From the NCBI RefSeq assembly GCF_028198165.1, contig NZ_CP116339.1, positions 2,425,001 through 2,489,000 on the forward strand: DNA of 64,000 nt, given 5' to 3'. Of this stretch, positions 36,706 to 56,547 are shown in pieces. The number at the start of each line of letters is the position of its first letter. Within the stretch, counting starts at the first letter, position 1. The notes beneath the pieces are model-generated. The model worked only from the letters and a program-made list of their open reading frames with translations. It made no database searches and was not told where the DNA came from. The translations under genes and the position numbers were made by a program. Source of the stretch: Pseudoxanthomonas sp. JBR18. Its GTDB lineage: Bacteria; Pseudomonadota; Gammaproteobacteria; Xanthomonadales; Xanthomonadaceae.

Positions 36706-38023
<1,318 letters not shown>

Positions 38024-38463: not shown

Positions 38464-38907
38464 TCACGCGCCGGGTGCCGGCGGGGGTGGTGGTGGCAAC
38501 GGTGGCGGCGGGGGCGCGGGAGGAATCAGGTCCACGTAATCACTGGCCGACAGATGCGCCACACGCACGCTGCCATCGCGCGCGTCGACCTGCAGCGCCG
38601 TGCTGTGACCATGCAGGGCGCGCAGGGCCGAAATCAGCGCAGCCACCGTCTGGACCGGCTTGCCGTCGACCGCGCGGATCACCTCGCCGGCGTGTAGCGG
38701 CAGTCCCTTCGCATCTTTCACCACGACGCCCGCCTGGACGTCACGCAGCTGCAGGCGACGCTCCAGGCCTTGCCAGCGGAGCTGATGGTCATCGACCTGC
38801 AGGTGGCCAAACTTCGCCTCGGCAGACGCGGGTTGAAGCGTTGCGCACAGGGCGCACAGCACGGTGGCGATGAGCAAGCGGCGTGAGGTTGGCATATGCA
38901 TCTTCAT
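38464..38907 (-). CDS. Exported PDZ-domain protein with polyproline tail
   Basis: 147 residues: signal peptide (LLIATVLCALCATLQPASA), a single PDZ-like domain (LQLRDVQAGVVVKDAKGLPLHAGEVIRAVDGKPVQTVAALISALRAL, with the carboxylate-binding loop LPLHAGEVI), and a tail of almost only Pro and Ala (residues about 130-147). No protease domain is attached. PDZ domains bind C-termini or mediate periplasmic complexes. The gene begins six bases after the last permease, so coexpression is very likely. The ligand may be one of the permeases or an exported substrate. Confidence 0.7.
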   Translation of the reverse strand: MKMHMPTSRRLLIATVLCALCATLQPASAEAKFGHLQVDDHQLRWQGLERRLQLRDVQAGVVVKDAKGLPLHAGEVIRAVDGKPVQTVAALISALRALHGHSTALQVDARDGSVRVAHLSASDYVDLIPPAPPPPPLPPPPPPAPGA

Positions 38908-38913: not shown

Positions 38914-40158
38914 TCAGCCGGCCCGCGTGGCGATGGCCGGCGGGACGCGCGAGGCGCGCAGGGCGGGCCCGAGCACGGCGACCTGGCCCAGTGCCCACAG
39001 CAGCAGCGCACCGACAGGCAGGTAGAGCAGCGGCAGGCGCGCGAGTTCGTACTGGCGCATCAACAGCTGGTTCAGGCCGTAGGCCAGCAGCATGCCCAGC
39101 ACGACGCCGGCGCCGACGATCAGGAAGTTCTCGGCCTGGAAGTGGCGCAGGATGTCCCCGCGCGTGGCGCCCACCGCGCGGCGGATACCGATCTGCCGCG
39201 TGCGCTGGCCAACCCAGAAGTTCGCCAGCCCGCCGATGCCCAGCGCGGTGACGAACAGCAGCGCCAACGACGAGGTGATGAGCAGACCGAGCATGGTGAC
39301 GTCGCGCTGGAAGTATTCGCGGCGCACCTGGGTGTAGGTGCGTCGCTGCTCCTCGGGAATCAGGCGCACCGGGCCGGCCTTGTCCAGCGCGGCGGCCGCT
39401 TCGCGCAGCACGCGCTGACGGTCCTGGGGGGCACTACGCAACAGATAGGTCGAGGAGATCTGTCCCTTGCTGGTGGAGGTCAGCAGAAGCATCGTGTCGT
39501 CCGGCACGCCGGAGACCATGGGCGCCAGCACGTCCTGGATCATGCCCACCACTGGAACCGGGCCATTGAACCCGTACAGCAGCTTGCCTACCGGGTTCTG
39601 CCCAGGCCACAGGCGGTGGGCCATGCTGCGGGTCACGATGACGGCCTGGCCGGCCTTTTCGGCGGCGCGCTCCTCGTCGGTGAAATCGCGCCCCGCGAGC
39701 AATTTCAGGCCCATTGCGCTGAGCAGGTCCGACGAGCCGGAATAGCTGGGAAACGAAACGCAGCCACTGATGCCGTCGATGCCGCGGGCGGCTTTGGCGC
39801 GATCAAATCCCTCCTGCGATGTGCACGCCCCCGTACCGGAATAGTTGCGCGACAGCGGCATGCTGCCATTGTCCAGCGCCGCCGCGGCCTGAACGCCATC
39901 GATGGCGCGTAGCGCCGTCAGGTCGGTCCGCCGCTGTGCCTGTGCATTGGCCGCATCGTCCAGTCCACTGACGCTGATCAGGGACAACTGGTCTTCCGGA
40001 AGGCCGGAGGCCGCGGTGATCTGCTGGATCCGTCCGACCAGCATGAAGCCTGCATTGATCACAATGGCGCAGGTCAATGCGACCTGTAGCGTCAACAGCG
40101 CGGCGGTGAGCCGGTGATGACGCAGCGCCGACAGGATGGGCATGAGGGGCAACGGCAT
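38914..40158 (-). CDS. ABC permease, pair 6 B-type (FtsX/MacB-like)
   Basis: 414 residues. TM1 is about LLTLQVALTCAIVINAGFML, then a periplasmic domain of about 230 residues, then three C-terminal helices with the coupling segment RQIGIRRAVGATRGDILRHF. This copy differs from most B-types by a Cys pair in the outer domain (ACTSQEGF and ISGCVSF, about 25 apart) and by Val for Leu in RRAVGA. Its C-terminus RVPPAIATRAG keeps the B-type ending. It starts three bases after the pair 6 A gene; a start five codons in (MPILSAL) is also possible. Six bases separate it from the PDZ gene. Confidence 0.9.
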   Translation of the reverse strand: MPLPLMPILSALRHHRLTAALLTLQVALTCAIVINAGFMLVGRIQQITAASGLPEDQLSLISVSGLDDAANAQAQRRTDLTALRAIDGVQAAAALDNGSMPLSRNYSGTGACTSQEGFDRAKAARGIDGISGCVSFPSYSGSSDLLSAMGLKLLAGRDFTDEERAAEKAGQAVIVTRSMAHRLWPGQNPVGKLLYGFNGPVPVVGMIQDVLAPMVSGVPDDTMLLLTSTSKGQISSTYLLRSAPQDRQRVLREAAAALDKAGPVRLIPEEQRRTYTQVRREYFQRDVTMLGLLITSSLALLFVTALGIGGLANFWVGQRTRQIGIRRAVGATRGDILRHFQAENFLIVGAGVVLGMLLAYGLNQLLMRQYELARLPLLYLPVGALLLWALGQVAVLGPALRASRVPPAIATRAG

Positions 40159-40161
40159 GAT

Positions 40162-41478
40162 TCAGACTCCCTTGATCTGCAGCGCAGGTGAGATCCGGCT
40201 CGCGCGCCATGCCGGCAGCAGGCCGGACAGCAAGGTCGCCACCACGGCCAGCGTGACGGTGGAGAACAACATCGGCGCGTCCATCTGGGCGATCCGGGCG
40301 TAGTCGTCGGGACGTTGGCGCACGCTCCACAGTCCGAGCTGGGACAGGGCGATGCCCAGCAGCCCTCCGCTCAGGCCGATCAAGGCGGCTTCGGTCCCAA
40401 GCTGGACCAGGATGTCCCGGCCACGTGCGCCCAGGGCGCGGCGCACGCCGATCTCGTTGCCGCGGCGCAGGAACTTGGCCAGCAACAGGGCAATGATGTT
40501 GACCAGGCACACCAGCAGAAAGCCCAGCGCCAGCCACAGCTGCAACTGCACTTCCGAAGGCACCAGCTTGCGATAGGCCAGCCAGTCCATCAACGGATAC
40601 AGGCGCACGGTCTCCGGATCGCGCTCGAAGCGCCCGCTGGCATGCTGCTGGGCGGCGTAGTCATGCAGGAAGCGCGTGTAGTCGGCGACCTGCTGCGGGG
40701 TGTCGAGCTCCACCCAGAATTGCAGCCAGCTCGACGAAGGCGATTTCAGGACGTCTTCCATGTCCGACTCGGCCCAACTGGATTGGTTGCCGGAAATGTC
40801 GAACCGAAGTTCAACCGCGACCGACAGAGGCAGGAAGAACGCATCGCTCTGGCCGAACGAATCGCTGCTGCCCAGGTCGGCGTAAAAGCGCGGCTGTGGC
40901 GACCACGGTGCGGTGACGCCCACCACCCGGAAAAGCGTGTCCTTCAGGCGCACCGTGCGCCCGACGACATCGGTCGTTCCGTATAGCTTGACCGCCAGGT
41001 CGTGTCCCAGCACCGCCACGCGCGCATGCTCATCGTCCTCGTGCGCGGTCCAGCCTTGGCCATGCTCAAAGGGGACCTGGAACATCGCAAAGAAATCCGC
41101 GGTGGTGAAGCGGCCCTCGTAATAGTTGGGACGGGCCACGGCCTTGGTCGGCCACACCAATAGCCTGCCGCCGGCCATGGCCGCCTGATGCGTCGCCTTG
41201 CCATGCGTGAGCAGCGCCATCGCGTCGGGATAGGTGAAGTTGTTTGAAGGATTTCCCCACCTGCCACCATCGGGATACTTCAGCGGCAGCGGATCAAGGT
41301 GCGGATAGAACAACCCCCCGCTTTTCTCGGGAATCGGATCTTGGGTCATGACATGCAGCACGGTGAGCATGGTCATGCTGGCGCCGATCCCCAGGCCGAT
41401 GGCGCACACCATCAGCGCGGTCATCACCGGCGTGCGCCGCAGGCTGCGCAGGGCCAGGCGGAAGTAGTAGCCGATCAA
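40162..41478 (-). CDS. ABC permease, pair 6 A-type, cysteine pair lost
   Basis: 438 residues from a TTG start. CAGGAG six bases upstream and alignment with the other A-types (LIGYYFRLALRSLRR against MLAYY...) favour TTG 41478 over the upstream ATG at 41532, which would overlap the previous gene. TM1 is about MTALMVCAIGLGIGASMTMLTVLH. The outer-domain position where all other A-types have two cysteines reads SSW...SSSW with the same 15-residue spacing, so both Cys became Ser. The C-terminal part, EIGVRRALGARGRDILVQLGTEAA, has RG for the usual S(R). The membrane helices are otherwise well conserved. Confidence 0.88.
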   Translation of the reverse strand: MIGYYFRLALRSLRRTPVMTALMVCAIGLGIGASMTMLTVLHVMTQDPIPEKSGGLFYPHLDPLPLKYPDGGRWGNPSNNFTYPDAMALLTHGKATHQAAMAGGRLLVWPTKAVARPNYYEGRFTTADFFAMFQVPFEHGQGWTAHEDDEHARVAVLGHDLAVKLYGTTDVVGRTVRLKDTLFRVVGVTAPWSPQPRFYADLGSSDSFGQSDAFFLPLSVAVELRFDISGNQSSWAESDMEDVLKSPSSSWLQFWVELDTPQQVADYTRFLHDYAAQQHASGRFERDPETVRLYPLMDWLAYRKLVPSEVQLQLWLALGFLLVCLVNIIALLLAKFLRRGNEIGVRRALGARGRDILVQLGTEAALIGLSGGLLGIALSQLGLWSVRQRPDDYARIAQMDAPMLFSTVTLAVVATLLSGLLPAWRASRISPALQIKGV

Positions 41479-41512
41479 GGTTCGCTCCTGTGCACTGTTA
41501 CGTTGAAGGCCT

Positions 41513-42739
41513 TCAGGCGCTGCGGGTGGCAATCGCCGGCGGCACGGCAGCGGCCTTGCGCGCGGGCCAGAACACGGCGACCTGTCCCAGCGCCCACAGC
41601 AGCACCGCGCCCACGGGCAGGTACATCAGCGGCAGGCGTGGCAGCTCGTACTTGCTCATCAGCAGCTGGTTGATGGCGTAGGCCAGCAACATGCCCAGGG
41701 CGATGCCGGCGCTGACCAGCATCAGGTTCTCGGTCTGAAAGTAGTTGAGGATCTGACGCTTGCTGGCGCCCAGCGCGCGGCGGATGCCGATTTGTCGGGT
41801 GCGCTGTTGCACCCAGAAGCTGGTCAGTCCGACGATGCCGCCGGCGGTGACCAACAGCAGCACCACGCAGACGGTCACCAGCAGCCAGGCCATGGTGCGG
41901 TCGTCGTCGTAGTAACTGTGGCGCGCCTGCTCCAGCGTGCGTGCATCATCGCTGGACACCAGCCGGGTGGGGCCATGCGTACGTAGCGTCTGAAGTGCGG
42001 TCTTGAGGATGGCCTGGCGCTGTGCGGGATCGGCCACGCGCAGTAGATAGGTGCCGCGCGAATAGGGCAGGTTCGACGGCATCAACACGGCGTAGTCGTA
42101 CTGGGCCGACCTGCCGTTGTCGCGAGGTTGCACGAGTCGGTCAACCACCCCCACCACCGGGTTGGTGCCATCGATGTAGAGCGTCTTGCCGACCGCGTTT
42201 TGTCCTGGAAACAACCGCTCCGCCAGCGCCTGGCTCAGGATCACCGGGGTGCTGCTGCTTTCAGGCGTCGAGGTGGGGTTGGTCTGGAAGTCGGTGAATT
42301 CATTGGCGTTGAACGGGCGTCCTGACACCACGCGCAGGCCGAGTGTCTCGATGACTTGCGTGCCGCCCAGGTATCGTGTCTCGGTCGCCGTGGGCTTGTC
42401 CTGATCGGGGCGCAGGCTGATGCCACTGACCCCGAAATTTGAGCCGAACACGGTCTGGTTGATGATGGAAGCGGCCCTCACACCGGGAATCGCGCGCAGC
42501 GCGCTCAGGTCATCGCGGGTCACGGCCAAGGCATCGCTGTCCTTGCCAATGCCGCTGACATGCAGCTCCACCAGGTGGGATTCATCGAGCCCCGTCGGCC
42601 GCTGGATGCGCTCCAGACGCTGTCCGATCAGGAACAGTGCATTGCAGACCACCGCACAGCTGAAGGCGATCTCCAGCACGATCAGCGTGGTGGCGATCTT
42701 GTGGCGGCGCAGGGTGGAAAGGATCGGTCGCAGTTCCAT
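41513..42739 (-). CDS. ABC permease, pair 5 B-type
   Basis: 408 residues, starting MELRPILSTLRRHKIATTLIVLEIAFSCAVVCNALFLIGQ (amphipathic start plus TM1). The periplasmic domain shares the frame LGLRVVSGRPFNANEF...VILSQALAERLFPGQNAVGKTLYI with other B-types but has no cysteines. The coupling segment is RQIGIRRALGASKRQILNYFQTENLML and the end is AAAVPPAIATRSA. It is closest by eye to the pair 4 B gene (same MELRPILSTL start and SKYELPRLPLMYLPVGAVLLWALGQVAVFWPARKAAAVPP stretch), pointing to duplication of a whole A/B pair. Thirty-four bases precede the pair 6 A start. Confidence 0.92.
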   Translation of the reverse strand: MELRPILSTLRRHKIATTLIVLEIAFSCAVVCNALFLIGQRLERIQRPTGLDESHLVELHVSGIGKDSDALAVTRDDLSALRAIPGVRAASIINQTVFGSNFGVSGISLRPDQDKPTATETRYLGGTQVIETLGLRVVSGRPFNANEFTDFQTNPTSTPESSSTPVILSQALAERLFPGQNAVGKTLYIDGTNPVVGVVDRLVQPRDNGRSAQYDYAVLMPSNLPYSRGTYLLRVADPAQRQAILKTALQTLRTHGPTRLVSSDDARTLEQARHSYYDDDRTMAWLLVTVCVVLLLVTAGGIVGLTSFWVQQRTRQIGIRRALGASKRQILNYFQTENLMLVSAGIALGMLLAYAINQLLMSKYELPRLPLMYLPVGAVLLWALGQVAVFWPARKAAAVPPAIATRSA

Positions 42740-42751
42740 GGGGATCTCCGG

Positions 42752-44056
42752 TTACTGCGATTTGAGTTGGATGGCGGGTGTGACGTGCATGGCCTGCCAG
42801 GCCGGCAGTGCGCCGGCCAACAGGCTGCTCAGGAGCGCCAGGCCAAAGGTGGCCAGCAGCATCGTCAGATCCATGTGCGCCATGGGCGCGTAATCGGCCG
42901 GTTGCTTGCGGACGATGGCCAAGCCGAGCAACGCCAGGCCCAGCCCCAGGCTGCCGCCGGTCAGACCGACGATGCCGGCTTCGACCAGGTATTGGGCGAA
43001 CACGGTCCTGCGGCTGGCCCCCAAGGCGCGGCGCACGCCGATCTCGCTGCTGCGGCGCAGGAACTTGGCCAGCAGCAGGCCGATGGTGTTGAGCAGGCAG
43101 ATCACCAGGAACCCCAGCGCCAGCCACAGCTGCAAGCGCACATCGGACGGCACCACGTGATTGCGATCCAGCCACTGCATCACGTTGAGCAGCTTGAGGT
43201 CTCCGGGGTGCTTGAATCGCCCCGCGTCGTGCTGGCGGGCGATGTAATTGTCCAGATAGCGGCGGTAATCGGCGGCATCCGATCCGGCGCCCAACTCGGT
43301 CCAGTACTGAAGCCAAGCACAGGGCGCGGACAGGGCGGTCTTGCCTTCTGGTGTATCGCCCCAGCACCACATCGAACCACTCAACGGGAACGCCAGGTCC
43401 ATCGCGGTGGAGAAGGGAACGAAGATCTCCTCGCTGTTGCCGAACTCGTCGTTGGTCAAATCGTAGAAGCGTGGATTGACCGCCCACGTGTTCAACACCC
43501 CGATCACCTGAAGCGACTGTCCGCTGACCTGGATGGTGCGGCCGGTGCCGTCGGCACCACCGAAGAGCTGCTGATTGAGTTTTGAGGAAATCACCGCCAC
43601 GCGCGCGTGATCGGCATCGTCGCGCGCTGACCAGGCATGGCCATGCTTCAGCGGCACATCGAACATGGGGAAAAAGTCGGCCGTCGTGTAGCGCGACTCG
43701 ACCCGGAACGCGCTCTGTCCGGCCGCGGTCGGGAGAATGACCACGCTGCCGGCGGACATCATCGCCTGGCGCTTGCCATGGCCCTGCTTGAGCAGGCTTT
43801 CGGCATCCAGGCGGGTCATTTGCAGCAGCTCGTCCCGGTCGCCAGGGTCGTATTGGCTATCGGGCAGGGCGTTCATCTGAACATAAAACAGCCGCTCACT
43901 CTTGCCTGGAATCGGGTCGCTGGACAGCACGTGAAACACGGTCAGCGTGGTCATCGACGCACCGATGCCCAGCGCTATGGTTAACACCATCAACGCGGTC
44001 AGTGCCTTGTTGCGACGGAAACTTCGCAAGGCCAGATTCAAGTAGTAGGCAAGCAT
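42752..44056 (-). CDS. ABC permease, pair 5 A-type
   Basis: 434 residues, MLAYYLNLALRSFRRNKALTALMVLTIALGIGASMTTLTVFH at the N-terminus (TM1 about 19-41). The outer domain has RYTTADFFPMFDVPLKHGHAWSARDD and the Cys pair CWGDTPEGKTALSAPC before AWLQYW. Three C-terminal helices contain SEIGVRRALGASRRTVFAQYLVEAG. Resembles the pair 4 A gene most. Twelve bases separate it from its B partner, which fits coupled translation of a heterodimer. Confidence 0.92.
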   Translation of the reverse strand: MLAYYLNLALRSFRRNKALTALMVLTIALGIGASMTTLTVFHVLSSDPIPGKSERLFYVQMNALPDSQYDPGDRDELLQMTRLDAESLLKQGHGKRQAMMSAGSVVILPTAAGQSAFRVESRYTTADFFPMFDVPLKHGHAWSARDDADHARVAVISSKLNQQLFGGADGTGRTIQVSGQSLQVIGVLNTWAVNPRFYDLTNDEFGNSEEIFVPFSTAMDLAFPLSGSMWCWGDTPEGKTALSAPCAWLQYWTELGAGSDAADYRRYLDNYIARQHDAGRFKHPGDLKLLNVMQWLDRNHVVPSDVRLQLWLALGFLVICLLNTIGLLLAKFLRRSSEIGVRRALGASRRTVFAQYLVEAGIVGLTGGSLGLGLALLGLAIVRKQPADYAPMAHMDLTMLLATFGLALLSSLLAGALPAWQAMHVTPAIQLKSQ

Positions 44057-44077
44057 GTGGAGCTCCTGTGCGGCCGG

Positions 44078-45292
44078 TTAGGCGCTGCGCGTGGCAATTG
44101 CCGGCGGCACTGCGGCAGCCCTGCGCGCTGGCCAGAACACGGCAACCTGCCCGAGCGCCCACAGCAGCACCGCGCCCACGGGCAGGTACATCAGCGGCAG
44201 GCGCGGTAGCTCGTACTTGCTCATCAGCAACTGGTTGATGGCGTAGGCCAGGCCCATGCCCAGCACGATGCCCACGGTGGCCAGAATGAAGTTTTCGGTC
44301 TGGAAGTAGCGCAGGATCTGGGCGCGGGTGGCGCCCAGGGCGCGGCGCACGCCGATCTGGCGCGTGCGCTGGGCCACCCAGAAGCTGGCCAGGCCGATGA
44401 TGCCCAGCGCGGTCACCACCAACAGCGCGGCGCTGACCGCCACCAGTAGCCAGGCCATGGCGCGGTCGTTGCGGTAGTAGCGGGTGCGCAGGTCTTCCAG
44501 GGTGCGGCTGGTGTTGACGCTGACGATGCGGGTCGGGCCGATATGCGACAGCACCTGCTTGGCTTGATCCAGCACCGCGTCGCGGCGGGCCGGGTCGGCC
44601 ACGTTGATCGCGTAGATGCCGCCGTCCATGTAGCTGAAGCGCACCGGGAACAGCATGGACATGTCGTATTCGGCGCCGGGGCCGGCATCGCGCGGCTTGG
44701 CCAGGTGCTCGATGATGCCGACCACGTGATGCGGCTGGTCGCCAAAGACGTAAATCGACTTGCCCAGTGCGGACGCGCCGGGGAACAGGTGCGCGGCCAG
44801 TGCCCGGGTCAGGATGACCGATGGATAGTTGTTGTCGTCCGCATTGCGGTACTCGTCGGGCTTGAAGTCCCGGCCTTCCACCAGCTTCAGGCCCAGCGCA
44901 TCCAGGCCACCCTCACCAACCATGTAGTTGGTGGTGGCCATGGTGCTGTCCTCCTGGTCCGGGCGCAGCTTGATGCTGCTCATCCACATGGAGTTGGCGA
45001 ACGTGGCCTGGTTGATCGTGGTGACCGCGCGCACACCGGGGATGGCGCGCAGCGCGTTCAGGTCGGCGCGGGTGACGGCGTTGCCCTCGGCGTCGTGGCT
45101 GATGCCGTTGATGCGCAGAAACACCAGGTGCGACTCGTCCAGCCCGCTGGGCCGGTGCATGCGTTCCAGACGGTTGTTGATGAGGAACAGCGCGTTGCAG
45201 ACGATGGCGCAGCTGAAGGCGATTTCCAGCACGATCAGGGCCGCGGCCGTCTTGTGGCGCAGCAGGGTGGACAGGATGGGGCGCAGTTCCAT
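44078..45292 (-). CDS. ABC permease, pair 4 B-type
   Basis: 404 residues, the shortest B-type. It starts MELRPILSTLLRHKTAAALIVLEIAFSCAIVCNALFLIN; the frame is open further upstream but the family N-terminus fixes ATG 45292. The outer domain has LGLKLVEGRDFKPDEYRNADDNNYPSVILTRALAAHLFPGASALGKSIYVF and no cysteines. The coupling segment is RQIGVRRALGATRAQILRYFQTENFIL and the end is AAAVPPAIATRSA. It differs from its nearest relative (pair 5 B) mainly in the outer domain, while the last 130 residues are nearly the same. Confidence 0.92.
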   Translation of the reverse strand: MELRPILSTLLRHKTAAALIVLEIAFSCAIVCNALFLINNRLERMHRPSGLDESHLVFLRINGISHDAEGNAVTRADLNALRAIPGVRAVTTINQATFANSMWMSSIKLRPDQEDSTMATTNYMVGEGGLDALGLKLVEGRDFKPDEYRNADDNNYPSVILTRALAAHLFPGASALGKSIYVFGDQPHHVVGIIEHLAKPRDAGPGAEYDMSMLFPVRFSYMDGGIYAINVADPARRDAVLDQAKQVLSHIGPTRIVSVNTSRTLEDLRTRYYRNDRAMAWLLVAVSAALLVVTALGIIGLASFWVAQRTRQIGVRRALGATRAQILRYFQTENFILATVGIVLGMGLAYAINQLLMSKYELPRLPLMYLPVGAVLLWALGQVAVFWPARRAAAVPPAIATRSA

Positions 45293-45303
45293 GATGCGGC
45301 TCC

Positions 45304-46611
45304 TTATTGCGTCTTGAGCTGGATGGCGGGAGTGACCTGCATCGCGCGCCAGGCCGGCAATGCGCCGGCCAGCAGGCTGCTGACCAGGGCCAGGGCAAAG
45401 GTGCCCAGCAGCATCGGGGCGTCCAGGTGGGCCAGGGTGGCGTAGTCGGTGGGTTGCTGGCGCACCGCCCACAGGCCCAGCAAGGCCAGGCCCAGGCCGA
45501 GGACACCGCCGGCCAGGCCGACCGTGCCGGCCTCGACCAGGCACTGGACGAAGATGTCCCGGCGCGAGGCGCCCAAGGCGCGACGCACGCCCAGCTCGCT
45601 GCCGCGGCGCAGGAACTTGGCCAGCAGCAGGCCCACGGTGTTGAGCAGGCACACGCCCAGGAAGCCCAATGCCAGCCACGCCTGCAGACGCACGTCGCTC
45701 GGCACGACCTGGTTGTGGTCCAGCCAGGTCATCACGTCGCTCAGACGCACGTTGGGCGCGCGCTGGAAGCGGCCGGCGTCGTGCTGGCGCGCCGAGTAGT
45801 TCTCCAGGTAGGCGCGGTAATCGGCAGCCTTGGACGGGGATGCCAACTGCACCCAGTACTGGACCCAGGCGCAGCCGGCGTTCAACGCCAAGGCGTCATC
45901 GCCGGCATCGCTCCAGCAGTTGGTGTTGCCGCTGTTGCCCCAGTGCAGGTCCATGGCAGTGGAGAAGGGGACGTACACGTCTTCCGGCCCTTCGTTGTAG
46001 CGGCCGTTGGTCAGGTCGTAGAAGCGCGGGTTGGGATTCCAGTCGCCATCGACCACGCCCAGCACGCGGAAGGCGGTCTTGCCCAGCTGCAGCGTGCGCC
46101 CGGTGGGGTCGGCCTGGCCGAAGAGCTTTTGTGACAGCGGCTGGCTGATCAACACCACGCGCGCACGCGCCTCATCATCGGCCGCGGTCCAGGGATGGCC
46201 GTGTACCAGCGGCACCTCGAACATCGGGAAGAAGTCCGCCGAGGTGTAGCGCGCATGCAGGAGGAAGGGCGTCAGGCCCGGCGTGTCCGGCTCGATGGCC
46301 GCGCCACCGGCCGACATCATCGCCTGCAGGTCGCCGCGCTTTTCGCGCAGCAAGGCTTCGGCGTCGAAGCGGGTGAGCTGGTCGCTGGGGTCCTCGCCCG
46401 GCTTGGCGCCATTGAGCGGCCGCGGATCCAGCTGCACGTAGAACAGGCGGTCGCTCTTGTCTGGAATCGGATCGCCGGAGACCACGTGGAAGACGGTCAG
46501 CGTGGTCATCGACGCACCGATGCCCAGGGCGACGGCCAGCACCATCAGCACGGTCAAAGCCCGGTTGCGGCGGAAGCTGCGCAGGGCGAGATTGAAGTAG
46601 TAGGCGAGCAT
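45304..46611 (-). CDS. ABC permease, pair 4 A-type
   Basis: 435 residues, MLAYYFNLALRSFRRNRALTVLMVLAVALGIGASMTTLTVFH then outer domain with ARYTSADFFPMFEVPLVHGHPWTAADDEARARVVLIS and the Cys pair CWSDAGDDALALNAGC before AWVQYW. Helices 2-4 include LNTVGLLLAKFLRRGSELGVRRALGASRRDIFVQCLVEAG, where SEL replaces the common GEI/SEI. It ends AIQLKTQ like the pair 3 A gene. Eleven bases lie between it and the pair 4 B start. Confidence 0.92.
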   Translation of the reverse strand: MLAYYFNLALRSFRRNRALTVLMVLAVALGIGASMTTLTVFHVVSGDPIPDKSDRLFYVQLDPRPLNGAKPGEDPSDQLTRFDAEALLREKRGDLQAMMSAGGAAIEPDTPGLTPFLLHARYTSADFFPMFEVPLVHGHPWTAADDEARARVVLISQPLSQKLFGQADPTGRTLQLGKTAFRVLGVVDGDWNPNPRFYDLTNGRYNEGPEDVYVPFSTAMDLHWGNSGNTNCWSDAGDDALALNAGCAWVQYWVQLASPSKAADYRAYLENYSARQHDAGRFQRAPNVRLSDVMTWLDHNQVVPSDVRLQAWLALGFLGVCLLNTVGLLLAKFLRRGSELGVRRALGASRRDIFVQCLVEAGTVGLAGGVLGLGLALLGLWAVRQQPTDYATLAHLDAPMLLGTFALALVSSLLAGALPAWRAMQVTPAIQLKTQ

Positions 46612-46626
46612 GGCGGCTCCAGTGGG

Positions 46627-47862
46627 TCAGGCGCTGCGGGTGGCGATGGCAGGCGGGATGGCGGCGGCGCGACGGGCCGGGTAGAGCACCGCCAGCTGGC
46701 CCAGCACCCATAGCGCCAGCGCGCCGACGGGCAGGTAGGCCAGCGGCAGGCGCGGCAGTTCGTAATGGCGCATCAGCAGCTGGTTCAGGGCGAAGGCCAG
46801 CACCATGCCCAGGGCAATGCCCAGGGTGACCAGCAGGAAGTTCTCGGTCTGGAAATAGCCCAGGATCTGCCCGCGTGTGGCCCCCAGCGCGCGGCGCACG
46901 CCGATCTGGCGCGTGCGCTGGCCTACCCAGAAGCTGGCCAGCCCGACGATGCCCAGCGCGGTGACCACCAGCAGCGCCACGCACAGGGTGATCAGCAGGC
47001 CCATCATGTCGCGGTCGTTGCTGAAGTAGTCGGCGCGACGCTCGTCGAAGGTCTGGTTCTGCATCACCAAGCGGCTCGGATCGACGCGGTTGACGGCGTC
47101 CACCGCATCGCGCAGAACCTGCGCGCGGCGCGCCGGGTCGCTCACGCGCAGCACATAGAGCCCGCCCTGGTCGTAATGCTTGCGCAGCGGCATCAGCATC
47201 GAATAGCTGGTGTTGCCATTCCAGTTGTTGGGCCGGCGCAGCTGCTCGACCACCCCGACGATGATCAGCGGGATGTTGGCCATGTACACCTGACGCCCGA
47301 CGGCGGCTTGTCCGGGGAAGAGTTTTTCGGCAGTGGCCTTGGTCACGATCAGCGGCATGGTCTTCAGTGGCATGCCGTTGTGGGTACCCAGCTGGTCCAT
47401 CAACTCGGACCAGTTCATGAACTCATCCGGCCTGAAGTCGCGCCCGGCCGCCAGCCGTAGACCCAGCGTACGCAGCGTGCCCTCGTCGCCCACGTACATC
47501 GCCGCACTCAGGGTCGGGGTGGGCTGGTCGGGGCGAGTGCCCAGCGAGGAGTTGTTGGAGCCATAACGGAACGGCAGCTGGTCGACCATTGCCACGCTGG
47601 TCACCCCCGGCACGGCGCGCAGCGCGGCCAGGTCTTCCTGCGCCCTGGCATCGGCGTTGACCTGCTTGCCCACCCCACTGAGCGAGAGGACCACCAGCTC
47701 GTGTTCGGCCACACCGCTGGTCTGGTGCAGCGACTCCCAGCGCTGGCCGACGATGAACAAGGCGTTGCAGATGATCGCGCAGGTCAGCGCGATCTCCACC
47801 ACGATCAGGGCCGCGGCGGTCTTGTGCCGGCGCAGGGTCGACAGGATCGGTCGGATTTCCAT
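46627..47862 (-). CDS. ABC permease, pair 3 B-type
   Basis: 411 residues, MEIRPILSTLRRHKTAAALIVVEIALTCAIICNALFIVG. The outer domain has LGLRLAAGRDFRPDEFMNWSELMDQLGTHNGMPLKTMPLIVTKATAEKLFPGQAAVGRQVYM, with an insertion of about ten residues relative to pair 4 B. Coupling segment RQIGVRRALGATRGQILGYFQTENFLLVTLGIALGMVLAFALNQLLM; end AAAIPPAIATRSA. No outer cysteines. It sits 15 bases after its A partner and 15 before the next A gene. Confidence 0.92.
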   Translation of the reverse strand: MEIRPILSTLRRHKTAAALIVVEIALTCAIICNALFIVGQRWESLHQTSGVAEHELVVLSLSGVGKQVNADARAQEDLAALRAVPGVTSVAMVDQLPFRYGSNNSSLGTRPDQPTPTLSAAMYVGDEGTLRTLGLRLAAGRDFRPDEFMNWSELMDQLGTHNGMPLKTMPLIVTKATAEKLFPGQAAVGRQVYMANIPLIIVGVVEQLRRPNNWNGNTSYSMLMPLRKHYDQGGLYVLRVSDPARRAQVLRDAVDAVNRVDPSRLVMQNQTFDERRADYFSNDRDMMGLLITLCVALLVVTALGIVGLASFWVGQRTRQIGVRRALGATRGQILGYFQTENFLLVTLGIALGMVLAFALNQLLMRHYELPRLPLAYLPVGALALWVLGQLAVLYPARRAAAIPPAIATRSA

Positions 47863-47877
47863 CAGGCAGTCCTCCGG

Positions 47878-49182
47878 TTACTGGGTCTTGAGCTGGACGG
47901 CGGGGGTGATCTGCATGGCCCGCCAGGCCGGCAGCAGGCCCGCCAGGACGCTGGCCACCAGCGCCAGGACGAAGGTCAGCAGGAGCATGCTCGCGTCCAG
48001 GTGGGCAAGCGCGGCGTACTGGGTGGGACGATGGCGCACGGCCCACAGGCCCAGTTCAGCCAGGCCCAGGCCCAGCACGCCACCACTCAGGCCCACGGTT
48101 CCCGCCTCGACCAGGCACTGCTTGAAGATCTCCACGCGGCTGGCCCCAAGGGCACGGCGCACGCCGATCTCGCCGCTGCGGCGCAGGAACTTGGCCAGCA
48201 GCAGGCCCACCGTGTTGACCAGGCACACCAGCAGGAAGCCCAGCGCCAGCCACAGCTGCAGGCGCACATCGCCGGGCACGGCCTGGTTGAAATCCAGCCA
48301 GTCCATGACATCGCGCAGGCGCACATTGGGCGGGCGCTGGTAGCGGCCGGCATCGTGCTGCTGCTGCGAGTACTGGGTCAGGTAGGTGCGGTAGTCGTCG
48401 GCCTGTCCCGCGCTGGCCAGTTCCACCCAGTACTGGATCCAGGCGCAGGACGCCTCGCGCTCGGTGCCGTCCACCGTGGCCTCCTGCCCATAGCAGTTCA
48501 TGCTGCCCGAGCGCGACTGCTTGAGGCCGATGGCGGTCTGGAACGGCTCGAAGACCTGCTCCTCGGTGCCGTAGGTGCTCAGGTTGAGGTCGTAGAACAG
48601 CGGCTTGGGGCTCCAGTGATCGATCACCCCGACGATGCGGAAGTCATGACCATCCAGGCGCAGGGTGCGACCGGTGCTGTCCGCGCCGCCGAACAGCTTG
48701 TCGTTGAGGCGCCTGGCGATCACCACCAGCCGGGCCTGGCCTTCGTCCTCGGCCGCCGACCAGGCGTGCCCATAGAGGAAGGGCACATCGAACATCGCAA
48801 AGAAGTCCCGCGTCGTGTAGCGCGCATCCAGCATGAAGGGCTTGAGCGCGCCGCCGGCCGGTTCGACCGTCACGCTGCCGCCGGACATCATCGCCTGGCG
48901 CTGCCCGCGCGCCTGCTGCAGTAGCGTCTCCGCATCGTGTCGGTTGAGATCGGCCTGGGGCTCGTCGCCCGGCGTGTAGCCGGCCAGCAGCTCCGGATCG
49001 AGCTGCACGTGGAACAGGCGGGTGCTCTTGGCCGGGATCGGGTCGCCCGACAGCACGTGGTACACGGTGAGCATCGTCATCGACGCGCCAATGCCCAGCG
49101 CGATGGCCAGCACCATCAGCGCGGTGAGCACCTTGTTGCGGCGGAAGCTGCGCAGGGCCAGTTGACAGTAGTAGGCGAACAT
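47878..49182 (-). CDS. ABC permease, pair 3 A-type
   Basis: 434 residues from ATG 49182 (MFAYYCQLALRSFRRNKVLTALMVLAIALGIGASMTMLTVYH). The frame extends upstream into the preceding gene without similarity. The outer domain has ARYTTRDFFAMFDVPFLYGHAWSAAEDEGQARLVVIARRLNDKLFGGADSTGRTL, and the Cys pair is one residue wider than in the other copies (CYGQEATVDGTEREASC). Coupling segment GEIGVRRALGASRVEIFKQCLVEAG; end AVQLKTQ. Confidence 0.92.
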   Translation of the reverse strand: MFAYYCQLALRSFRRNKVLTALMVLAIALGIGASMTMLTVYHVLSGDPIPAKSTRLFHVQLDPELLAGYTPGDEPQADLNRHDAETLLQQARGQRQAMMSGGSVTVEPAGGALKPFMLDARYTTRDFFAMFDVPFLYGHAWSAAEDEGQARLVVIARRLNDKLFGGADSTGRTLRLDGHDFRIVGVIDHWSPKPLFYDLNLSTYGTEEQVFEPFQTAIGLKQSRSGSMNCYGQEATVDGTEREASCAWIQYWVELASAGQADDYRTYLTQYSQQQHDAGRYQRPPNVRLRDVMDWLDFNQAVPGDVRLQLWLALGFLLVCLVNTVGLLLAKFLRRSGEIGVRRALGASRVEIFKQCLVEAGTVGLSGGVLGLGLAELGLWAVRHRPTQYAALAHLDASMLLLTFVLALVASVLAGLLPAWRAMQITPAVQLKTQ

Positions 49183-49198
49183 CGGCGTGCTCCGGTAG

Positions 49199-50446
49199 TC
49201 AGGTGCTGCGAGTGGCGACAACGGGGGGGATGGCGGCCGCGCGCAGGGCCGGGCCGAGCACGGCCAGCTGGCCCAGCAACCACATCGCCACCACGGCGAT
49301 GAGCACCGGGACGGCGCTGAGGCGTTCAAGCTCGAAGCGCTGCATCAGCCACTGGTTCAGGGCGAAGGCCAGCAACGCCCCCGCCACCACGCCGGCGCCC
49401 ACGATCAGGAAGTTCTCGATCTGGAAGTAACGCAGGATGTCGGTGCGCGTGGCGCCCAGCGCACGACGGATGCCGATCTGCCGGGTGCGCTGCTGTACCC
49501 AGAAGCTCGCCAACCCACCCACGCCCAGCGCGGTCACGGTCAACAGGATCACCATGATCCCGGCCAGCATGCGATTGAGCGCGGTGTCGCCGCGAAAGGT
49601 GTCCTCGCGCAGCTGGGCCATGGTCTTGACCATCTGCTGCACGTGGCCCGGGTTGGCCTGCTGCAGCGCCTTGGCCGCCAGCGGCAGCACCTGTGCCAGC
49701 TGTCCAGGCTGGCTGCGCAGCATGTAGCCCCCGCCCAGGCCTTCGCCGGCCACCTTGAATTCGGTCACGACCGCCATCGCATCGTCGGGATGGCCGGTAA
49801 TGGCCGCCCGCAGCGGCGCAATGACGCCAACCACGCGCAGGCTGATCGGCGTCCCCCACATGTTGGTGTACAGCACCTTGCCCAGCGCGGATTGCGTGGG
49901 GTACAGCTGCTCGGCCAGTGCCTGGGTCAGCAGCGCCGGGAACTGGCGCGTGTCGGCCGAGCCGCCCGACGTATCGCCGAACGTCGACATGAGCCCGGGA
50001 AGCTCGGCGTCCTGGAGATCGCGTCCCTGGATGACCCGCGTGCCCAGCGTGCGATTCAGCCCCTGGCTGCCGTTGAGCAGATACGGGCGTGCCAGGGGCT
50101 GCTCGGCATCGGGCGAGGCGAACAGCGCGGCGCGGTCCACACGCCACAGCGGAGGCGCGCCAAACGCCGCGGCCGCCACGCCGGGCACCGACTGCAGCGT
50201 GGCCAGGTTGCTGCCGGCCGTGCCGGGGTTGTCCTCGCCGATGACGCCGATGCTCTGGATCACCGCGATGTCGGCCTCGTCCGTGCCGGTGGGCGTGCGG
50301 GCGCGCTGCAGGTTGCCGGCCACGATGAACATCAAATTGCACAGCACCGCCAGGGTCAGGGCGATTTCCAGCGCCAACAGCAGCGCGGCGGCGCGGTGGC
50401 TGCGCAGCGCGCGCACGATGGGGCGGATCGAATCGATCGGGCTCAT
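49199..50446 (-). CDS. ABC permease, pair 2 B-type
   Basis: 415 residues, starting MSPIDSIRPIVRALRSHRAAALLLALEIALTLAVLCNLMFIVAG. Its ATG overlaps the stop of the pair 2 A gene (ATGA). The outer domain is among the most divergent (LGTRVIQGRDLQDAELPGLMSTFGDTSGGSADTRQFPALLTQALAEQLYPTQSALGKVLY). Coupling segment RQIGIRRALGATRTDILRYFQIENFLIVGAGVVAG; end AAAIPPVVATRST. The last 74 bases of the gene match the pair 1 B gene almost exactly although the rest differs, suggesting gene conversion. Confidence 0.92.
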   Translation of the reverse strand: MSPIDSIRPIVRALRSHRAAALLLALEIALTLAVLCNLMFIVAGNLQRARTPTGTDEADIAVIQSIGVIGEDNPGTAGSNLATLQSVPGVAAAAFGAPPLWRVDRAALFASPDAEQPLARPYLLNGSQGLNRTLGTRVIQGRDLQDAELPGLMSTFGDTSGGSADTRQFPALLTQALAEQLYPTQSALGKVLYTNMWGTPISLRVVGVIAPLRAAITGHPDDAMAVVTEFKVAGEGLGGGYMLRSQPGQLAQVLPLAAKALQQANPGHVQQMVKTMAQLREDTFRGDTALNRMLAGIMVILLTVTALGVGGLASFWVQQRTRQIGIRRALGATRTDILRYFQIENFLIVGAGVVAGALLAFALNQWLMQRFELERLSAVPVLIAVVAMWLLGQLAVLGPALRAAAIPPVVATRST

Positions 50447-51747
50447 AGCGACTTCACCTGGAGGGCGGGGGCGATACGCGCCGCTCTCCACGCTGGCCAC
50501 ACGCCGGCCGCGAGTGCGGCGACCATGGCAGTGAGCAGGGCGAAGCCCAGCATCGGCGCGTCCAGCCCAACCTGCGCGGCATAGGGCACCGGTTGCTGGC
50601 GCACCATCCACAGGCCCAGCCAGGCCAGCGGCGCGCCCAGCAGCCCGCCGGCCAGGCCGATCAGCCCGGCCTCGACCAGGCACTGGATGAACACCGCGCG
50701 GCGGCTGGCACCCAGCGCGCGACGCACGCCAACTTCGCCGGCCTTGCGGCTGAACTTGGACACCAGCAGCCCGACCGCGTTGACCAGGCACACCAGCAGC
50801 ACGCCCAATGCGATCCATGCCTGCATACGCACCAAACTTGGCACCACGCGCTTGTAATCAAGCCACTCCAGCAGCCCGCGCACACGCACATTGGGTGCGC
50901 GCTGGAAGCGGCCCAGCTGATGTTGCTGCGCGCTGTAGTTCTCCAGGCGCTGCCGATAGGCGGCGACCTGGGTCGCATCGTCCAACTGCACCCAGAATTG
51001 GGCCCAGGTGCAGTTGGGCGCCTTGGGATCGTGGGTGCCATCGCCGTGGTCCCAGCAGGCCATTGGTCCGTAGCCGTAGTCCTGGGGCAGGTCCAGCCAA
51101 GTGAAGAACGGCATGTACAGCTTGGCTGGTTCGCTGAAGGCGCCCGAGCCCAGGTCGTAGAAGCGCGGCTGTGGGTTCCAGTCCTCCACCACGCCGACCA
51201 CGCGGAACACCTTGGTGGCGATCACCAACGTGCGGCCCACGCTGTCGGCCCCGCCGAACAGCGTGTCGTTGAGCGAGCGGGTCAGCACCACCACCAGCGC
51301 GCGCTGTTCGTCATCGGCCTGCGACCAACCGGTGCCGTAGACGAAGGGCACGCCGAACATGGCGAACATGTCCGCCGTGGTCGCCCGCGTATCCATCATC
51401 GCCAGCGCACTGCCTGGTGCGTCGGCGCGGGTGGGCAGCCAGTTGGTGCTGGTCAGCACACGCCGAGTGGCGCCGGGCAACGCGTAGAGATTGACCGCGT
51501 CCTGCCAGGTCAGATCGTCCGGTGGCTCGGGATCGGCCCCGGGCAACCGCGCCGGGCGCGGATCGACCTGCGGATGGAACAGCACCGCGCTGCGTGTGGG
51601 CAGCGGATTGCCAGACAGGTTATGCAGGACGGTAAGCATGGTCATGGACGCGCCAATGCCCAGCGCAATGGCCAGCACCATCAGCGCGGTGAGCACTCTG
51701 TGCCGGCGGAAGCTGCGCAGGGCGAGATGGCAGTAGTAGGCGAGCAT
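50443..51747 (-). CDS. ABC permease, pair 2 A-type
   Basis: 434 residues, MLAYYCHLALRSFRRHRVLTALMVLAIALGIGASMTMLTVLHNLSGNPLPTRSAVLFHPQVDPRP. The outer domain has TRATTADMFAMFGVPFVYGTGWSQADDEQRALVVVLTRSLNDTLFGGADSVGRTL and the Cys pair CWDHGDGTHDPKAPNC before TWAQFW. Helix 2 region SKFSRKAGEVGVRRALGASRRAVFIQCLVEAG differs from the AKFLRR of most A-types. It overlaps its partner by four bases, the tightest coupling of the six pairs. Confidence 0.92.
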   Translation of the reverse strand: MLAYYCHLALRSFRRHRVLTALMVLAIALGIGASMTMLTVLHNLSGNPLPTRSAVLFHPQVDPRPARLPGADPEPPDDLTWQDAVNLYALPGATRRVLTSTNWLPTRADAPGSALAMMDTRATTADMFAMFGVPFVYGTGWSQADDEQRALVVVLTRSLNDTLFGGADSVGRTLVIATKVFRVVGVVEDWNPQPRFYDLGSGAFSEPAKLYMPFFTWLDLPQDYGYGPMACWDHGDGTHDPKAPNCTWAQFWVQLDDATQVAAYRQRLENYSAQQHQLGRFQRAPNVRVRGLLEWLDYKRVVPSLVRMQAWIALGVLLVCLVNAVGLLVSKFSRKAGEVGVRRALGASRRAVFIQCLVEAGLIGLAGGLLGAPLAWLGLWMVRQQPVPYAAQVGLDAPMLGFALLTAMVAALAAGVWPAWRAARIAPALQVKSL

Positions 51748-51762
51748 GCGGCAGTCCTTCGC

Positions 51763-52998
51763 TCAGGTGCTGCGAGTGGCGACAACAGGGGGGATGGCGG
51801 CCGCGCGCAGGGCCGGCCCGAGGACGGCCAGTTGGCCGACGATCCACAGCAGCAGCGCACCGATGGGGAGGTAGGACACGGGCAGGCGCGCCAGCTCGAA
51901 GTAGCGCATCAGCAGTTGATTGCCGCCGTAGGCCAGCAGCATGCCCAGGACGATGCCGCCGCTGGCCAGCAGGAAGTTCTCGGTCTGGAAGTAACGCAGG
52001 ATGTCCGTGCGCGTGGCGCCCAAGGCGCGACGGATGCCGATCTGCTTGGTGCGCTGGGCCACCCAGAAGCTGGCCAGGCCGACGATGCCCAGCGCGGTGA
52101 CCAGCAGCATCGCGGCGATGACGGCGACCAGCAGGCCGGCCATGGTGCGGTCGGTCTGGAAGTACCGCTCACGCAGCTGCACGAGCGGTGCGCTTGCCGC
52201 CTGGTCGATGACGGCCTCGGGCACCGCGCGGGCCGCGGCTGCCTTGGCCGCCGCCAGCACGCGGGGCAGGTCGAGCGGATCGGCACGCAGGACGAACAGG
52301 CCGCGCTGGACGTAGGCGCCCTGCCAGGCATCGGGCGCGATCGGGACGATGATCGACCACTCCGCGCTGACCACGCCGTTCTCACTGCGCCCCGGGTCCG
52401 GACGTGCGAAGTGCGCCAGGACTCCGGCCACGCGGAAGTGAAACTGGGCCAGCCAGAACTCGCGTCCCAGTGGGTCCTGCCCGGGCCACAGGTGTTCGGC
52501 CAGCGCGCGGGTGATCCACACCTGCGAGTCGGCCGGGAAGAAGCCCTCCGAACCCTGGTAGTCGGCCGGCGTGAAGTTCCGCCCGGCGACCACTTTCAGC
52601 CCCAGCGTGTCTGTCGCGCCCCGGGTGAAGGCATAGAAGTGCGGCACGCCGGCGAACTGCTTGCATTCGCTGTCCAGGCAGATCCCGGCGTTGCCGGTGG
52701 GTTCGCCGAACGGGACGGTGTTGACCATCGCCGCCGACTGAAGACCCGGCACCGACTGCAGCGCCTGCATCACCCGGCCCTGCAGATCGGCAGCGTTGCA
52801 TTCCTCGCAGCCGCGCAGCTTGAGCGTCGCTAGCGAGGCTTCGTCCACGCCACTGTCGATGCGCATCAGGTCCAGGCGCGAGCTGACCAGGAAAAACGCA
52901 TTGCACAGCACCGCGCAGGCCAGCGCAATTTCCAGGGTGATCAGCATCGCGGCGATGCGATGCCGGGCCAGCGCGGAGAGGATCGGTCCGATGGTCAT
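51763..52998 (-). CDS. ABC permease, pair 1 B-type, cysteine-rich outer domain
   Basis: 411 residues from ATG 52998 (MTIGPILSALARHRIAAMLITLEIALACAVLCNAFFLV). The frame is open far upstream through the pair 1 A gene but only this start fits the family. The outer domain carries four cysteines in two close pairs (LRGCEECNA and ICLDSECKQ), unlike the B-types of pairs 2-5. LGLKVVAGRNFTPADYQGSEGFFPADSQVWITRALAEHLWPGQDPLGREFWL follows. Coupling segment KQIGIRRALGATRTDILRYFQTENFLL; end AAAIPPVVATRST. Confidence 0.92.
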   Translation of the reverse strand: MTIGPILSALARHRIAAMLITLEIALACAVLCNAFFLVSSRLDLMRIDSGVDEASLATLKLRGCEECNAADLQGRVMQALQSVPGLQSAAMVNTVPFGEPTGNAGICLDSECKQFAGVPHFYAFTRGATDTLGLKVVAGRNFTPADYQGSEGFFPADSQVWITRALAEHLWPGQDPLGREFWLAQFHFRVAGVLAHFARPDPGRSENGVVSAEWSIIVPIAPDAWQGAYVQRGLFVLRADPLDLPRVLAAAKAAAARAVPEAVIDQAASAPLVQLRERYFQTDRTMAGLLVAVIAAMLLVTALGIVGLASFWVAQRTKQIGIRRALGATRTDILRYFQTENFLLASGGIVLGMLLAYGGNQLLMRYFELARLPVSYLPIGALLLWIVGQLAVLGPALRAAAIPPVVATRST

Positions 52999-53006
52999 GG
53001 GCACCC

Positions 53007-54329
53007 CTACAGACTCTTGAGCTGGATGGCTGGCGCGATGCGGCTGGCGCGCATGGCCGGGAACAGGCCGGCGCCCAGACTGGCGACCAGCGCCAGGGCG
53101 AAGGTGGCCGCGAACATCGCCACGTCCAGATGGATCAGGGGGGCGTATTCGACCGGCTGCAGGCGCACCGCCCACAGCCCAGCCAGGGTCAGCAGCAGCC
53201 CCAGTACCCCACCGGCCAGGCCGATCACCACCGCCTCGGTAAGCAGCTGGCCGAACACCGCGCCACGGCTGGCGCCCAGCGCGCGGCGCACACCGATCTC
53301 GCCGCCGCGACGCAAAAACTTGGCCAGCAGCAGGCCCACGGTGTTGAACAGGCAGATGGCCAGGAAAGCGACCGCCAGCCAGCTCTGCAGGCGCACGTCG
53401 CGCGGCACCACCCGGTTGAAGTCCAGCCATCCCATCAGGCTGCGCAGGCGAGTGCGGTCGACGTGGGCGATGCGCCCCAGGGTGTGTTGCTGGGCAACGT
53501 AACCGTCCAGGAAGCGGCGGTAGGCGGCCACCTTGTCGGCGTCGTCTAACTGCACCCACAACTGCAGCCAGACGCAGGGAGACTGTCTCAGATAGCCGGG
53601 GATCGAGGGCACCTCCCAGCAAGTCATGGGCTGAAAGTGACCGTCGTTGATGTCCAGTCCTGTGGAGAGCGGCGCCAGCACATCGGCCGGCTTGGCGTAA
53701 TACCCGGCGGTATCGCCCTGGGCGAAGCGACCGCCGGCCACCGAGTAGTACTGCGGAGAAGGCCGCCACGGTGCCAGCACGCCAACTATGCGCAGATCCG
53801 CGTCGCGCACGTGCAGGATGCGGCCGACGCTGTCGCCCCCGCCGAAGAGCTTGTCGTTGAGATCAGCGGAGATCACCGCCACCCGTGCATGCCGGTCGTC
53901 GTCCTCGGCGGTCCAGCCGGCGCCGTGCGCGAAGGGCACATTGAACATCGGGAAGAAGTCCGCGTGCGTGGACAGCATCGTGGACATCAGCGCATTGGTG
54001 CCGCTATCGGCGGCGCGCAGCTTGATCTCGCTGTTTACCACTAGCGCCTGGCGATCGGCACGCTGGGCGCGCCACAGGTCCATCGCCGAGGTGTAGTCGA
54101 GCATGTCGAACGGTTCGGTGTTCTGCACGCCTGCCGGCGAGGCATCCACCTGCGGATAGAAGATGTGCTGGCTGCGCCCCGGCAGCGGATCGCCCGAAAG
54201 CAGGTGCATCACCGTCAGCGTGGTCATCGCCGCGCCGATGCCGACCGCGATGGACAGCACCATCAACCCGGTCAGCACCGGGTTGCGGCGCAGGCCGCGC
54301 AGGGCCAGTTGCAGGTAGTAGGCGAACAT
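53007..54329 (-). CDS. ABC permease, pair 1 A-type
   Basis: 440 residues, MFAYYLQLALRGLRRNPVLTGLMVLSIAVGIGAAMTTLTVMH (TM1 about 18-42). The outer domain has THADFFPMFNVPFAHGAGWTAEDDDRHARVAVISADLNDKLFGGGDSVGRIL and the Cys pair Cys237/Cys252 before VWLQLW. Helices 2-4 contain NTVGLLLAKFLRRGGEIGVRRALGASRGAVFGQLLTEAVVIG. First permease after the ATPase gene (31 bases), with its B partner eight bases downstream. No ATPase domain is fused, unlike classical MacB. Confidence 0.93.
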   Translation of the reverse strand: MFAYYLQLALRGLRRNPVLTGLMVLSIAVGIGAAMTTLTVMHLLSGDPLPGRSQHIFYPQVDASPAGVQNTEPFDMLDYTSAMDLWRAQRADRQALVVNSEIKLRAADSGTNALMSTMLSTHADFFPMFNVPFAHGAGWTAEDDDRHARVAVISADLNDKLFGGGDSVGRILHVRDADLRIVGVLAPWRPSPQYYSVAGGRFAQGDTAGYYAKPADVLAPLSTGLDINDGHFQPMTCWEVPSIPGYLRQSPCVWLQLWVQLDDADKVAAYRRFLDGYVAQQHTLGRIAHVDRTRLRSLMGWLDFNRVVPRDVRLQSWLAVAFLAICLFNTVGLLLAKFLRRGGEIGVRRALGASRGAVFGQLLTEAVVIGLAGGVLGLLLTLAGLWAVRLQPVEYAPLIHLDVAMFAATFALALVASLGAGLFPAMRASRIAPAIQLKSL

Positions 54330-56530: not shown

Positions 56531-56547
56531 AGCAGATCGCGTGCCAA
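56531..56547 (-). promoter_or_regulatory. Sigma-54 promoter of the permease operon
   Basis: On the minus strand the sequence is TTGGCACGCGATCTGCT. Against the consensus TTGGCACG-N4-TTGCT it differs at one base (C for the first T of TTGC). The GG and GC elements have the correct spacing. Transcription would start near 56521, giving a short leader to the adaptor ATG at 56493. Confidence 0.85.

Follow-up and report, generated by a model that had tools for sequence, protein, structure and literature searches.

Gene organization of the permease operon

The window analysed here, a stretch of 64,000 nucleotides from Pseudoxanthomonas sp. JBR18 (contig NZ_CP116339.1, positions 2,425,001 to 2,489,000), carries on its minus strand at 35350-56493 an operon encoding a periplasmic adaptor, an ATPase, twelve permeases, two small exported proteins, a response regulator and a sensor kinase. 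A preliminary description of this DNA had drawn attention to the permeases, which alternate between an A and a B form, and had proposed that a single motor powers six interchangeable heterodimers. The range given there was correct for the permeases and omitted the promoter and four downstream genes (PDZ-like, DUF3471-like, regulator and kinase). The features are as follows, in window coordinates; pair types are those assigned in the trees described below.

56589..56602, minus strand: palindrome TGTCCGGGCGGACA (G000:C1:2481589-2481602), likely response-regulator site 1
56572..56587, minus strand: palindrome TGTCCGCAGACGGACA, likely response-regulator site 2
56532..56547, minus strand: sigma-54 promoter element TTGGCACGCGATCTGC, predicted from sequence
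55204..56493, minus strand: periplasmic adaptor (membrane fusion protein), 429 amino acids; TIGR01730 above cut-off, HlyD domains
54361..55077, minus strand: ATPase, the sole one in the operon, 238 amino acids; PF00005, 2e-32
53007..54329, minus strand: permease A1, type alpha; PF12704/PF02687, tree
51763..52998, minus strand: permease B1, type alpha; domain matches, tree
50443..51747, minus strand: permease A2, type beta; domain matches, tree
49199..50446, minus strand: permease B2, type beta; tree
47878..49182, minus strand: permease A3, type gamma; tree, AlphaFold2 model
46627..47862, minus strand: permease B3, type gamma; tree
45304..46611, minus strand: permease A4, type delta; tree
44078..45292, minus strand: permease B4, type delta; tree
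42752..44056, minus strand: permease A5, type delta; tree
41513..42739, minus strand: permease B5, type delta; tree
40162..41478, minus strand: permease A6, type epsilon; start codon taken as TTG, without the two conserved cysteines
38914..40158, minus strand: permease B6, type epsilon; domain matches, tree
38464..38907, minus strand: small exported PDZ-like protein, 147 amino acids; PF14685, 2.8e-5, 24.5 bits (cut-off 25, narrowly missed)
38036..38398, minus strand: small exported DUF3471-like protein, 120 amino acids; PF11954, 4.4e-4, 21.1 bits (cut-off 29.3, missed)
36686..38023, minus strand: sigma-54-activating response regulator with a GAYTGA motif
35350..36705, minus strand: sensor histidine kinase; two transmembrane (TM) helices joined by a loop of about 10 residues, with no sensor domain seen in the periplasm

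All twelve permease frames were open at these coordinates and alternated strictly between A and B, and the lengths (434-440 amino acids for A, 404-415 for B) and intergenic gaps (-4 to +34 bases) agreed with the preliminary description. The topology claimed there, with one N-terminal helix, an outer domain and three C-terminal helices, was recovered by hydropathy analysis of the twelve proteins, in which TM3 of B1 came out under the threshold, and, for A3, by an AlphaFold2 model (pLDDT 88.6, pTM 0.80). In the model, TM 17-45 was followed by the outer domain, TM 304-334, a coupling helix at 336-344, TM 349-383 and TM 397-423. With FtsX and MacB_PCD domains, four TM helices (1+3) and an outer domain, the permeases belong to the type VII ATP-binding cassette (ABC) class, MacB/FtsX. 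Identities were 45-66% among the A proteins and 37-63% among the B proteins, versus 18-25% between A and B. Separation of A and B into two clades had been proposed as a test; the A|B split received a support of 1.0 with a branch of 2.5 substitutions per site.

Only one ATPase and one adaptor gene were present in the operon, as described earlier. The adaptor scored 133.7 bits against TIGR01730 (cut-off 94.9) and is of the RND/HlyD type. For the ATPase, which is encoded separately from the permeases, the best of the 25 NCBIfam models listed was DarD of the darobactin exporter (265.5 bits, under the cut-off of 375); scores were 225.8 bits against LolD (cut-off 307.75) and 223.6 bits against the MacB equivalog model (cut-off 966). 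The preliminary description had named ATPases specific to each pair elsewhere in the genome as a finding that would refute it. The genome contained 44 matches to the operon ATPase, itself included. The nearest of the other 43 was 53% identical and lay 3-4 kb from another FtsX permease, and the next two (43% and 42%) adjoined other permeases; hence, the genome yielded neither a close second ATPase nor a group of close ATPases specific to the pairs. Sharing of one ATPase by the six pairs would be the simplest reading of this gene content.

Inheritance and divergence of the A/B pairs

Profiles derived from the window were run on 80 loci found through the ATPase and, in addition, on 43 stretches drawn from 28 genomes; the window's own genome supplied three of these stretches. 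After removal of duplicates, 101 operons remained. They comprise the window, 77 of the 80 loci closest to the window ATPase, and 23 picked genomes, many of which had been chosen for high copy number. An even sample consisted of 297 family genomes. As the preliminary description had anticipated, the number of pairs in the relatives ranged from 1 to 6, alongside a single ATPase and a single adaptor. The single-pair A-B arrangement was found in 62 of the 101 operons, many others held 2, 3, 4 or 5 pairs, and three operons, those of the window, G004 and G308, had six; the counts are lower bounds for seven operons that end in a lone A at the locus end and for L005 and L023, which likewise run up to a locus end. 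No second ATPase or adaptor gene was seen between the first adaptor and the regulator in the 101 operons, and one of them (L073) had no recognised permease. In the even sample, the A gene occurred once in 209 genomes, twice or more in 49 and never in 39, where at most five candidates were scored per genome and the copies did not necessarily lie in one operon. The regulator and kinase came after the permeases in most loci that extended far enough. Furthermore, glmS lay inside the flanks of 74 of the 80 ATPase-found loci, indicating that the genomic place of the operon is old. The six-pair arrangement is not unique to this genome and forms the upper end of a family-wide series.

Some irregular gene arrangements were also observed among the relatives. 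A weak third B was present in some operons (ABb in 4), and in L024 (A-B-B-b), L027, L052, L054 and L103 the final, weak B-like permease had no A partner. G308 carried an extra unpaired B gene (G308:C1, end at ~111987; L101), giving 6 A and 7 B. In L080, the adaptor was split over two frames. Surplus kinase and regulator entries in G007, G104, G130, G153, G257 and G308 looked like pieces of overlapping stretches, G153 being only partly resolved.

Subsequently, trees of 188 A and 188 B proteins were compared. The duplicates L001, L006 and L024 were dropped, G013, G014 and G020 (fused type) and G049 (whose contig starts within the array) were not entered, and permeases truncated at locus ends or scoring 300 bits or less were kept out. 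The types alpha (22 pairs), beta (13), delta (20) and epsilon (13) had the same membership in both trees, with supports of 0.996-1.0. Zeta (6) also had the same membership save one additional B (support 1.0 in the A tree and 0.64 in the B tree), and gamma grouped with many single-pair operons with a support of 1.0 in the B tree and without support in the A tree. The order of the pairs was alpha-beta-gamma-delta-delta-epsilon in the window, alpha-gamma-gamma-beta-delta-epsilon in G004 and beta-alpha-gamma-delta-epsilon in G007. Among the 55 pairs with an A or a B of type alpha, beta, epsilon or zeta, 54 carried concordant labels; the exception was L080_p3 from a distant genome, the B of which lay with zeta in the tree. 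When pairs were labelled by the nearest window pair, A and B disagreed in 39 of 188 cases, namely 38 delta/gamma and one delta/epsilon (L080_p3). The 38 cases sit in the weakly supported centre of the trees, where nearest distance cannot separate gamma from delta; co-inheritance was accordingly counted from clades of matching membership and from clear matches. Clear best matches were concordant between A and B in 1269 of 1269 cases, and all comparisons in 3172 of 3720 (1134 expected), the misses including cases without a counterpart. Within operons, A and B distances correlated at 0.79, compared with a mean of 0.19 and a maximum of 0.48 over 1000 shuffles; in the window alone the correlation was 0.86, which 12 of 720 permutations matched or exceeded. 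Thus, the co-phylogeny check proposed earlier indicated that the pairs co-evolve as units. The pair types are old and common to several genera, and their order is shuffled while A and B remain partners.

The outer domains were the variable part of the proteins. With boundaries set by hydropathy, mean identity among the six window paralogues was 41% (A) and 29% (B) in the outer domain and 80% (A) and 82% (B) in the coupling segment. Ten genes compared with G004 (A5 and B5 not among them) were under purifying selection, and in nine of them, all but A2, the dN of the outer domain exceeded that of the rest of the protein. Two outer-domain cysteines were both present in 175 of the 188 A proteins and both missing in 13, which are of the epsilon type. 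Since the cysteines were kept or lost jointly and never singly, an outer-domain disulfide is likely in the A proteins, and the loss may have been a single event.

The A and B proteins were also compared with the duplicated orphan permease ADOP (NCBIfam TIGR03434; model length 803, curated cut-off 622.3 bits), a family named for the absence of an adjacent ATPase. The first half of the model was covered by A proteins (A1 at 5-400, A2 at 7-399; 161-171 bits) and the second half by B1 and B6 (411-802; 171-176 bits), so that each half was matched along its whole length. Three A+B stretches, with a stop codon between the halves, reached 355-373 bits, and no window permease passed the cut-off as one chain. 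The fused ADOP model has 8 TM helices and aligned over its full length with E. coli YbbP. Because A corresponds to the first and B to the second half of ADOP, each pair resembles a fused ADOP/YbbP-like permease divided between two genes. These matches favour the heterodimers of the preliminary description; that all six use one motor, and that they are interchangeable, is what we infer. Separately, in L121, L122 and L123, from other families of the order, an adaptor and an ATPase were followed by fused ADOP permeases in tandem, and L122 and L123 had a second ATPase at the far end of the array.

Promoter pattern and candidate cargo

Upstream of the adaptor, 95 of 97 operons carried the sigma-54 element TGGCA[CT]N6TGC, compared with 0.3 in shuffles, and 72 carried a TGTCC...GGACA palindrome, for which shuffling gave 0.55. 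The combined pattern was present in 24 of 31 chosen genomes, with 66 matches listed versus 4 for the reversed control. In each of these 24 genomes the exporter operon carried one match (assigned by distance to the A gene in G001, G005, G012 and G083); the seven genomes without the pattern were five family genomes without an A gene, at the threshold of the even sample, and two from other families.

The pattern was present at 25 further promoter places, 19 of them in front of one and the same gene, which encodes a Sec-type exported repeat protein. The product was 127-160 amino acids long in the 16 cases read out and contained a repeat unit of about 25 residues three or four times. The window-genome copy scored 82.7 bits and the G308 copy 150 bits against the NCBIfam XAC0231 family (cut-off 140), and no paper naming XAC0231 was found in our literature search. 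A gene neighbouring the repeat-protein gene is one that we take to resemble trmL. The repeat protein was present in 92 of the 297 genomes; an A gene occurred in 87 of these 92 and in 171 of the 205 others, kinship between genomes being uncorrected. As a periplasmic protein under what is likely the exporter's own switch, it is a candidate cargo. Two other places preceded an M61-type peptidase gene; at E 1e-60, no genome of the 31 other than the window genome and G004 had this gene. One place preceded the start of a second adaptor-ATPase operon, L140 (G006:C129), and the last three had no gene assigned. A tie between the peptidase and the six-pair state was rejected, as G308 has six pairs without it. 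Four palindromes of the window genome (394589, 2027547, 35811 and 2333969) were also rejected as regulon members, because no good sigma-54 element lay within about 200 bases.

G000:C1:2067416-2067847 (L130): XAC0231-like repeat protein sharing the palindrome and sigma-54 promoter pattern; homologues L131-L139, L141-L147
G000:C1:2203596-2205305; L126:2094-3806, minus strand: M61-type peptidase gene preceded by two palindromes and a sigma-54 element

Around the operon, several copies of a palindromic gcggagc/gctccgc repeat were seen by eye at 56640-56880 of the window, between the promoter and an upstream IS110-type transposase gene (57084-58001). An HTH_Tnp_1 transposase gene lay downstream (34870-35334).

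A proposed shared motor, alternative readings and known systems

In our view, the operon probably specifies a tripartite exporter of the MacAB kind, organised as a chassis with cassettes, in which one ATPase and one adaptor would serve all six A/B pairs. Each pair, A1/B1 to A6/B6, is predicted to form a heterodimer that would engage a different periplasmic cargo. Every subunit would contribute four TM helices and one outer domain, the two coupling segments being predicted to rest on the two subunits of the ATPase dimer. The pairs would take turns on the ATPase like S-components on one group II ECF module, the outer domains would choose the cargo, and a TolC-type channel encoded elsewhere would complete the conduit. 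The short-loop kinase and the sigma-54 regulator may induce the operon upon sensed cargo or envelope stress. In the most speculative step, the XAC0231-like protein would be one cargo, picked up from the periplasm as the Sec-exported enterotoxin STII is by MacAB-TolC (PMC5985334; papers given by PMC number are cited for the excerpts available to us).

Several observations weigh against this interpretation. The operon has no outer-membrane channel gene (14 PF02321 domain matches in the genome, 0 in the operon). At equal outer-domain identity, coupling identity within one operon was not clearly above that between operons (A showed no excess; B differences were at most about 0.05 and of mixed sign); hence, there was no sequence signature of a shared motor. 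Co-duplication of the two genes could likewise give co-inheritance, although it explains only part of it, given that partners were retained despite the shuffled order. The ADOP model weakly matched ordinary FtsX permeases in 13 of 14 control genomes (E 0.001; 0 above cut-off), and another permease of the window genome scored 139 bits against its second half, exceeding B2. The repeat protein, being in 92 of 297 genomes only, 5 of them without an A gene, cannot be a general cargo, and its repeat number did not follow the pair number: three repeats occurred with 1, 5 or 6 pairs, and four in several genomes with 5 or 6.

The missing signature would fit a system in which only one pair is energised, probably gamma in view of its grouping with many single-pair operons, and the other five are orphans or use some of the 43 further ATPases. 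However, the coupling segments are about 80% identical on average within A and within B, intact pairs are retained in the same operon across genera, and the nearest other ATPases sit near permeases of their own; we regard this as quite unlikely. The array may instead consist chiefly of receptors for envelope-acting peptides that signal to the kinase, so that the system would protect the cell and not export a cargo. BceS-type kinases, to which this reading appeals, have a minimal outer loop, and the loop here, of about 10 residues between two TM helices, was read by eye in seven relatives too; the placement of regulator and kinase after the permeases points the same way. Nevertheless, the operon has a periplasmic adaptor of full length, which is characteristic of export across the outer membrane, and the permeases have 4 TM helices each against 10 in BceB, so that we judge a sensor array unlikely. 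Handling of envelope lipids or lipoproteins in the manner of LolCDE appears very unlikely, as the ATPase falls under the LolD cut-off, an adaptor is present and the sequences are nearer to MacB. Finally, a tandem array whose most similar copies are A3-A5 and B3-B5 could reflect gene dosage, i.e., redundant copies of one exporter. This was rejected as extremely improbable on the age of the pair types: the copies are only 37-66% identical, and alpha, beta, delta and epsilon cross genera with high support in both trees, indicating old, maintained copies rather than recent dosage.

Beyond the shared motor proposed for this operon, we tentatively raise the possibility of a broader mode of secretion with one motor and many heads, in which old, swappable heterodimer cassettes, each with its own periplasmic cargo, dock by turns on a common ATPase and adaptor under one sigma-54 switch, and a fused-head version powers the acidobacterial ADOPs. 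The sigma-54/palindrome regulon may provide a handle on the cargo. In the literature searched, which mostly excluded subscription journals, we found no account of one ATPase serving several permease pairs, and the excerpt of PMC8400333 had no bearing on this operon.

In MacAB-TolC, a type VII ABC exporter, MacB is a single polypeptide including the ATPase and acts as a homodimer, whereas the present operon has a separate ATPase gene accompanied by six A/B pairs. Group II ECF and MsmK-type importers have a fold unrelated to this exporter class and use S-components or whole permeases as partners; the resemblance would lie in several substrate-specific partners on one energising module, and the genome content is consistent with such sharing of one ATP module. 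In group II ECF importers one energising module serves several substrate-specific partners (PMC7755397), and MsmK is one ATPase common to several partners (PMC4519317). MacB-family permeases meet an ATPase dimer as homodimers, heterodimers or fusions (PMC5985334, PMC8277102). LolCDE likewise places two 4-TM permeases as a heterodimer on a homodimeric ATPase (PMC8277102), but has a single pair and lipoprotein cargo, and the ATPase here reaches neither the LolD level (225.8 vs 307.75 bits) nor that of DarD (>375 bits). BceAB-BceS also couples a type VII permease to a two-component system, and its BceB has 10 TM helices (PMC5985334). The BceAB-BceS system is Gram-positive, has no adaptor and uses a regulator of another type. 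E. coli YbbAP has a single fused permease and is placed among homologues that form no tripartite pump, and YbbP has two extra linking helices (PMC5985334), compared with 8 TM helices in the ADOP model. ADOPs resemble the pairs half by half and, in other families of the order, stand fused in tandem behind an adaptor and an ATPase; the pairs differ in being two genes, in scoring under the curated cut-off and in having an adjacent ATPase. One acidobacterial genome holds 102 orphan permeases, of which 80 are expressed and the role is unclear (PMC10564751). The relation of ADOP to A plus B suggests that these permeases may work with shared ATPases. Taken together, the comparisons suggest a variant of the MacB/type VII ABC exporter that is analogous to group II ECF importers and hints at how the ADOP orphans are powered; if so, module sharing known from vitamin importers would extend to tripartite export, which would be new for this exporter class.

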